Shown: positions 19,681 through 32,935 of the stretch, piece by piece
How the letters are laid out: every line of letters starts with the position of its first letter
Position numbering within the stretch: position 1 is the stretch's first letter
Source of the DNA: Actinomycetes bacterium
GTDB lineage: Bacteria; Actinomycetota; CALGFH01
Assembly (NCBI GenBank): GCA_036000965.1
Contig: DASYUT010000109.1
Coordinates: forward strand, 1 to 45,796
DNA length: 45,796 bases
Direction: 5' to 3'
Position numbers and translations under genes: made by a program
Notes under the pieces: generated by a model
Databases searched by the model: none
Told to the model about the DNA's origin: nothing
The model's input: only the letters and a program-made list of their open reading frames with translations

Positions 19681-19722
19681 CTGTCCTGGCTGAAGGAGCT
19701 GTCCTGGCTGAAGGAGCTGTCC
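19681..19722 (+). repeat. 18-bp tandem duplication carrying the mca ribosome site
   Basis: CTGTCCTGGCTGAAGGAG is present twice in perfect tandem (19681-19698, 19699-19716), followed by the first six bases of a third copy. Each unit ends in the Shine-Dalgarno sequence GAAGGAG. The second is 10 bases before the mca GTG; the first is 28 bases before it. Confidence 0.9.
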
Positions 19723-19726
19723 AACG

Positions 19727-20605
19727 GTGCCTCGTACCCTGCTCGCCGTGCACGCCCACCCCGACGACGAGTCGTCCAAGGGCGCGGGCACCTTCGCCCG
19801 TTACGCCGACGAGGGCGTGCACACCGTGGTGGTGACCTGCACCGGCGGGGAGGCTGGGGAGATCCTCAACCCGGCCATGGACCAGCCGGGCAACCTCGAG
19901 CGCATGCCCGAGCTGCGCAGGCAGGAGCTGGCCAAGGCGCTCGAGATCCTGCGCGTGGACGCCCACTACTGGCTCGGCTACCGGGACTCCGGCATGGCCG
20001 ACACCGAGCCCAACGCCCACTCGGACGCCTTCGCCAACGCCGACCTGGGCGACGCGGTCGGGCGCCTGGTACGGATCATCCGCGCCGAGCGGCCTCAGGT
20101 GATCGTCACCTACGACGAGCGCGGCGGATACCCCCACCCCGACCACGTCCGCACCCACGAGATCTCCGTCCCGGCCTTCGAGGCAGCCGCCGACCCGGCC
20201 CGCTACCCGGACGCCGGGCCGCCCTTCCAGCCGCTGAAGCTGTACTACCACGCGACCTCCACCAAGCGGCGGCTGGAGACCATCCACACCGGCGCCATCG
20301 CCCGGGGGGTCGAGAGCCCGTACGGGGAGTGGCTCGAGCACTGGAGCGACGACGCGTGGCCCGAGCCGGTCGTCACCAGCCAGATCGACGTGTCCCGGTG
20401 GCTGGCGCAACGCCGGGACGCCCTGATCGCCCACGCCACCCAGATCGACCCGAACAGCCGCGGGTTCGCCATCCCCGACGAGGTGGTGGCCGAGGTCTAC
20501 CCGTGGGAGGACTACACCCTGGTCCGCTCGCTGGTCCCCACCGGCGACCCTGAGACCGACCTGTTCGCGGGCATCGGCCCCGACGGCGAGCCCCTGGTGG
20601 GGTAG
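19727..20605 (+). CDS. mca: mycothiol S-conjugate amidase
   Basis: The 292-residue protein is a LmbE/PIG-L zinc amidase. The zinc-binding motif LLAVHAHPDDESSKG (H11, D14) and the second motif GGYPHPDHVRTHE (H140) are intact. The C-terminal part (LKLYYHATSTKRRLETIH, ESPYGEWLEHW, HATQIDP, YTLVRSLV, ETDLFAGI) matches Mca rather than the shorter MshB deacetylase. Mca cleaves mycothiol-toxin conjugates in the cytoplasm so they can be exported as mercapturic acids. The presence of mca indicates a mycothiol-using actinobacterium. The GTG start is set by the duplicated GAAGGAG sites just upstream. The downstream transsulfuration genes would supply cysteine for mycothiol. Confidence 0.93.
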   Translation: MPRTLLAVHAHPDDESSKGAGTFARYADEGVHTVVVTCTGGEAGEILNPAMDQPGNLERMPELRRQELAKALEILRVDAHYWLGYRDSGMADTEPNAHSDAFANADLGDAVGRLVRIIRAERPQVIVTYDERGGYPHPDHVRTHEISVPAFEAAADPARYPDAGPPFQPLKLYYHATSTKRRLETIHTGAIARGVESPYGEWLEHWSDDAWPEPVVTSQIDVSRWLAQRRDALIAHATQIDPNSRGFAIPDEVVAEVYPWEDYTLVRSLVPTGDPETDLFAGIGPDGEPLVG

Positions 20606-32441: not shown

Positions 32442-32807
32442 TCACTTGGGGACGACCACCACGCGCCCGGCCATGCCGGCGTGCAGCGTGCAGCGGTACT
32501 CGAAGGTGCCCGGCCGGTCGAACCGGTGCTGGAAGGTCCCGTTGCGCACGGTCTTGGACTCGAAGCCGTCCCCCTTGACGTTGTGGGGGACGTTGCCGTC
32601 CTCGAAGGACCAGGTGACCGTGGTCCCGGCCGGCACCTGGACGGCGAGCGGGGTGAACACCGTGTCCTTGGCGACCACGCGCTGAGCGCCGACGACGGGC
32701 TCGGCCTGGGCGGCGCGGTTCTCGGGGTGGTTGGGCTGGCAGGCGGCGGCCAATATCGTGAACAAGATCACGAGCGCGGCCGTGAAGATTCGGGATCGGC
32801 TCGGCAC
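32442..32807 (-). CDS. cupredoxin (type 1 copper) lipoprotein
   Basis: The 121-residue product has a signal peptide with lipobox ILAAAC (C23) and a plastocyanin-like domain. The four type 1 copper ligands are visible: H75 in VPHNV, and C106, H109 and M112 in YRCTLHAGM. It should be a lipid-anchored extracellular electron carrier. GTG 32807 is preceded by AGGAGAG, itself part of a 13-bp unit present four times. The DtxR-family regulator gene follows by 24 bp, which links the copper protein to metal-responsive control. Upstream in frame are only repeat-derived codons, so a longer start is unlikely. Confidence 0.9.
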   Translation of the reverse strand: MPSRSRIFTAALVILFTILAAACQPNHPENRAAQAEPVVGAQRVVAKDTVFTPLAVQVPAGTTVTWSFEDGNVPHNVKGDGFESKTVRNGTFQHRFDRPGTFEYRCTLHAGMAGRVVVVPK

Positions 32808-32858
32808 TGAAGGTCTCTCCTGAAGGTCTCTCCTGAAGGTCTCTCCTGAAGGTCTCTC
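32807..32858 (-). repeat. four tandem 13-bp copies carrying the cupredoxin ribosome site
   Basis: The plus-strand unit CTGAAGGTCTCTC is present four times without a mismatch (32807-32819, 32820-32832, 32833-32845, 32846-32858). On the mRNA strand each junction forms AGGAGAG, a Shine-Dalgarno sequence. The one nearest the GTG is at correct spacing. Confidence 0.92.
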
Positions 32859-32863
32859 CTGAG

Positions 32864-32935
32864 GTGCGGGTCGGTGCCTGTCTTGCGGTGCGGGTCGGTG
32901 CCTGTCTTGCGGTGCGGGTCGGTGCCAGTCTGCCA
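32864..32935 (-). repeat. three tandem 24-bp copies further up the cupredoxin leader
   Basis: Units at 32864-32887 and 32888-32911 are identical (GTGCGGGTCGGTGCCTGTCT plus four bases). The third, 32912-32935, has three changes. This second tandem array lies 5 bp from the 13-bp array and is unrelated in sequence. Confidence 0.88.

Follow-up and report, generated by a model that had tools for sequence, protein, structure and literature searches.

Why does the leader of a predicted copper lipoprotein gene carry four perfect tandem copies of a Shine-Dalgarno (SD) sequence, and do the additional copies act on translation? The locus lies on contig DASYUT010000109.1 of an Actinomycetes bacterium (assembly GCA_036000965.1; genome G000 below), positions 1 to 45,796 of which, 45,796 nucleotides in all, are the stretch that was analyzed and are referred to as the window. 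Reading along the minus strand, we found a conserved gene that matches no Pfam family (33967-32972), an intergenic leader of 164 bp (32971-32808) that contains two tandem arrays, the cupredoxin gene (32807-32442) and, 24 bp downstream of the latter, a gene for a DtxR-family metal-dependent regulator (32417-31689; Pfam Fe_dep_repress, Fe_dep_repr_C, and FeoA). The cupredoxin, a protein of 121 amino acids initiated at the GTG at 32807, has a lipobox-like LAAAC motif and matches Pfam Copper-bind and Cupredoxin_1 (PF00127, PF13473). In a cupredoxin alignment, H75, C106, H109, and M112 were invariant across the three operon members. With the predicted lipoprotein, its Pfam domains, the 24-bp gap, and the retention of the pair in two genomes of a sister genus, the original prediction of a copper lipoprotein gene beside a metal regulator holds, and the two genes are probably cotranscribed.

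The 13-bp array occupies positions 32807 to 32862 (minus strand), where TRF reported 4.3 copies at 100% identity of a unit that reads CTGAAGGTCTCTC on the plus strand. In the mRNA sense, the array is made up of TCAGGAGAGACCT, repeated four times without a mismatch, and of four remaining bases, TCAG, and it extends as far as the first G of the start codon, GTG. A second array (32863 to 32931, minus strand) of about three copies of GCAAGACAGGCACCGACCCGCACC directly abuts it (TRF: 2.9 copies, 97%) and is unrelated to the 13-mer in sequence. Every 13-mer contains AGGAG, with cores at 32821-32817, 32834-32830, 32847-32843, and 32860-32856, that is, at distances of 9, 22, 35, and 48 nt from the GTG, and only the nearest core has a usable spacing. 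As read from the sequence, this proximal AGGAG (32817 to 32821, minus strand) is the likely ribosome-binding site. The four identical units, the single SD at normal spacing, and the adjoining, unrelated three-copy array are thus all as had been described from the letters. We considered and rejected that the array is part of a coding sequence: On the minus strand, an open frame does run through both arrays, yet the 13-bp period shifts the frame, the lipoprotein signal begins at the GTG at 32807, and orthologues start at the corresponding codon. The two-unit junction, searched as a 20-mer with up to three mismatches, had no second site in the 6.47-Mb genome.

We compared the locus with its counterparts in two genomes of a sister genus, G001 and G002, both of them fragmented assemblies. 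The order of upstream gene, cupredoxin, and regulator is kept in both, with identities to the window of 76 to 77% for the upstream gene, 51 to 53% over the protein for the cupredoxin, and 73 to 75% for the regulator. We observed no array in the orthologous cupredoxin leaders of these two genomes, which are short and carry one SD, TCAAGGAG, 5 nt before a GTG at the corresponding position. Likewise, no array precedes the two cupredoxin paralogues of G000, whose leaders were read on contigs C53 and C163. In an alignment by eye, the proximal AGGAG corresponds to AAGGAG of the sister leaders, and TCAGGAG....CTTC, from the proximal unit, pairs with the sister sequence TCAAGGAGCTTC, which suggests that the proximal SD copy was inherited as the ribosome-binding site and that the other copies are later duplicates. 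In the sister genomes (G001, contig C253; G002, contig C900), the counterpart of the leader interval holds a proline-rich membrane-protein gene that is absent there in the window and whose end lies ~20 bp upstream of the cupredoxin start codon. A synteny breakpoint at the locus was ruled out, since the upstream gene is shared and the difference is confined to the interval with this single extra gene; a relative of it sits on contig C186 of G000. A DNA similarity search of the leader against 100 relatives, which hold no other member of the genus of G000, gave short matches only, none of them covering the arrays as a whole, and a scan of genome contigs gave matches limited to two contigs of G001 and one locus in a halophilic archaeon. 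Since the units are identical and missing in relatives, the array expanded in this lineage only and probably recently, in line with the recency that had been proposed for it.

To place the array among others of its genome, we sampled ~838 kb (13%) of G000, using a simple codon-usage gene caller made for the purpose and a TRF score of at least 80. We observed 171 arrays, as compared to 0 after order-1 Markov resampling, and hence the 13-bp array is not a product of chance sequence. Of these, 100 fell in intergenic DNA, at ~563 per Mb of such DNA, and 23 of the 100 were near-perfect. No other intergenic array matched the perfection of the one in the cupredoxin leader or reached four exact copies (among coding arrays, the one at L061 has 5.9 copies), and given this perfection, the leader array may plausibly vary in length. 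The periods of the coding arrays were all divisible by three (63 of 63), a sign that the gene calls are sound and the arrays real. This coding constraint, not to be expected from assembly error, also bears on the reading that the 13-bp array is an artefact of draft-genome assembly: G000 does consist of 358 contigs with an estimated contamination of 4.19%, but the locus lies well within its contig, the array spans just 56 bp, and arrays do not accumulate at contig ends (1 observed, as compared to 2.2 expected). We regard an artefact as extremely improbable. Intergenic densities comparable to that of G000 were found in three complete genomes of the same phylum (420 to 801 per Mb, small samples; G024, G031, and G062). 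The sampled sister-genus DNA held 16 arrays, 0 of them intergenic in ~52 kb of intergenic DNA, where the assemblies are very fragmented and assembly loss is possible. Loss of the mismatch-repair protein NucS was rejected as a cause of the abundance of arrays, as NucS is present in both G000 and G002.

Within the 838-kb sample of G000, intergenic arrays neither favored SD sites nor were richer in SD sequence than other intergenic DNA. Nine intergenic arrays overlapped SD windows, as compared to 14.4 ± 3.3 for random placement within the same gap or 10.3 ± 3.1 for placement in any gap, and the density of SD cores was 3.64 per kb in intergenic arrays versus 3.62 per kb in other intergenic DNA. 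Several further arrays do overlap gene starts. The window contains a second SD-bearing array (19681 to 19722, plus strand), with 2.3 exact copies of an 18-bp unit that includes AAGGAG, upstream of an mca-like gene (named by reading its translation, with no family search) that starts with the GTG at 19727. At L094:16613-16741, a short-chain-dehydrogenase-like gene (also named from its translation) begins with about six tandem SD-ATG units resembling GGGAGGCACCCATGACCGAA, which adjoin an apparent flagellar regulatory cluster with csrA. Two more gene-start arrays, at L085:2924-3022 and L080:2700-2768, have a start codon in every unit (RTGACC-type and SD-ATGACC). The genes whose starts carry the arrays in the window, at L094, and at L080 are unrelated.

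Could the number of units nevertheless control the operon? One explanation is a copy-number rheostat or phase-variable switch, in which slippage alters the unit number and thereby cupredoxin initiation, via RNA structure or SD availability. The exact copies make such slippage plausible, and with Turner 2004 parameters, the predicted opening of the region from -15 to +15 alternated between odd and even copy numbers by ~1 to 2 kcal/mol for leaders that included upstream sequence. The alternation vanished, however, under alternative energy parameters (one set at most, as three parameter files printed identical values), and it was lost or reversed when the leader began at the array. For this array-start leader, the parity contrast was ordinary in comparison to shuffled units, 128 of 150 of which gave a contrast at least as large (a calculation run after a parameter reload). 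A parity effect of copy number on folding was thus found with one energy model only and is not robust, and the predicted response of start-site accessibility to the number of units is small and depends on the parameters. Unlike in switches that change spacing, the nearest SD keeps its distance to the GTG at any copy number, as the sequence makes plain, and the absence of enrichment at SD sites likewise speaks against a rheostat or switch, which we consider unlikely. That the array serves as a slippage-prone tuner, where gain or loss of units would shift RNA pairing and hence translation of the operon while the spacing of the SD in use stays unchanged, appears distinctly unlikely.

The distal SD copies might instead be standby sites for ribosomes and so increase the concentration of 30S subunits nearby. 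Three extra AGGAG cores do lie upstream of the start, and upstream standby sites are known in bacteria (PMC3936740). Against this, the distal cores were mostly paired (~0.73 to 0.79 with four units) in a single-sequence thermodynamic prediction, and the sister genomes manage with one SD only; we judge a standby role very unlikely. A switch role of the array is possible but unlikely, because the accessibility effect is not robust, the distal cores are mostly paired, and the proximal spacing is constant. The suggestion that the extra copies are standby sites or a phase-variable switch was therefore not upheld, given that arrays are widespread, not enriched at SDs, and absent from the orthologous and the two paralogous leaders, and that predicted start accessibility lacks a robust dependence on copy number.

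The predicted folding also bears on whether the array provides several binding sites, as an operator or an RNA target, for CsrA (through GGA motifs) or for the cotranscribed DtxR-family regulator. CsrA is encoded in the genome, each unit contains GGA, and the regulator gene lies within the same operon. CsrA sites have the core ANGGA, whereas the units read CAGGA, and the GGA is predicted in stems, not in loops. Moreover, csrA is located near genes read as FliA-like and FlbD-like (with no family search), which suggests a flagellar role, and the orthologous operons have no counterpart of the repeat upstream. An operator or RNA target at this site is highly improbable.

We conclude that the 13-bp array is probably a lineage-specific minisatellite that expanded over an ancestral ribosome-binding site, with the distal copies as passengers. 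A tandem duplication would have amplified a 13-bp segment in which the cupredoxin-DtxR operon happened to have its ancestral ribosome-binding site, probably through replication slippage between short direct repeats, TCAG...TCAG. The array is still flanked by TCAG on both sides. In the sample, intergenic arrays of two exact copies had on average 4.0 nt of further repeat sequence, as compared to ~0.9 nt by chance, an average that partial third copies may inflate; together with the TCAG bounds, this overhang fits slippage at short direct repeats. Initiation would then use the GTG-proximal copy only, and the distal copies would have little effect. The array belongs to a population of intergenic tandem arrays that extends across the genome, and roughly one in ten of them would overlap a translation start by position alone. 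We infer that the array is most likely neutral. Three observations count against this explanation: The array is the extreme of the sample in its number of exact copies, it coincides precisely with a ribosome-binding site whose operon is conserved and metal-related, and the sister genomes lack intergenic arrays in the DNA sampled, where assembly loss is possible.

Arrays of this kind have been described before. Satellites as defined in PMC6749651 (head-to-tail repeats of at least four copies with a unit of 10 to 200 nt and internal regularity) are often intergenic and also occur in high-GC Actinobacteria such as Streptomyces coelicolor, and with 4.3 copies of a 13-bp unit at 100% identity, the present array fits that definition by copy number, unit length, and unit identity. 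It resembles the intergenic minisatellites of bacterial VNTR loci in its head-to-tail copies but differs in that its unit contains a ribosome-binding site; VNTR loci, moreover, are defined by polymorphism between strains, while the present array is known from one genome. In marine Beggiatoaceae, TAACTGA direct repeats with a 7-bp unit form 169 sets, mostly without SD character, that are concentrated at starts (PMC4679880). The 13-bp unit, in contrast, bears an SD and occurs at one locus, and the arrays of G000 are not concentrated at starts, and so do not form a start-associated repeat family. For UspA1 of Moraxella catarrhalis, PMC4679880 describes a mononucleotide G tract between promoter and start codon, 30 nt upstream, that was studied experimentally as phase-variable. 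Both that tract and the present array are repeats in the untranslated leader of a gene for a surface-exposed protein, but here the unit is 13 bp long, contains an SD, and is known from the sequence of a single genome. As in the standby sites of PMC3936740, a candidate ribosome-binding sequence lies upstream of the start; unlike in those, the distal SD cores are predicted to be mostly paired and are known from sequence alone.

Overall, the array belongs to a known kind: It is a minisatellite, specific to this lineage and probably of recent origin, that covers a ribosome-binding site, and it is most likely neutral. If it is neutral, a repeated SD would by itself be no evidence of regulation in genomes where arrays run to hundreds per Mb of intergenic DNA, as about a tenth of the intergenic arrays in such a genome would overlap a ribosome-binding site by position alone. 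At the same time, the tandem ribosome-binding sites that occur naturally and independently at several loci of this genome, some of them with start codons in all units, could be used to test the effect of extra SD copies in a high-GC actinobacterium.
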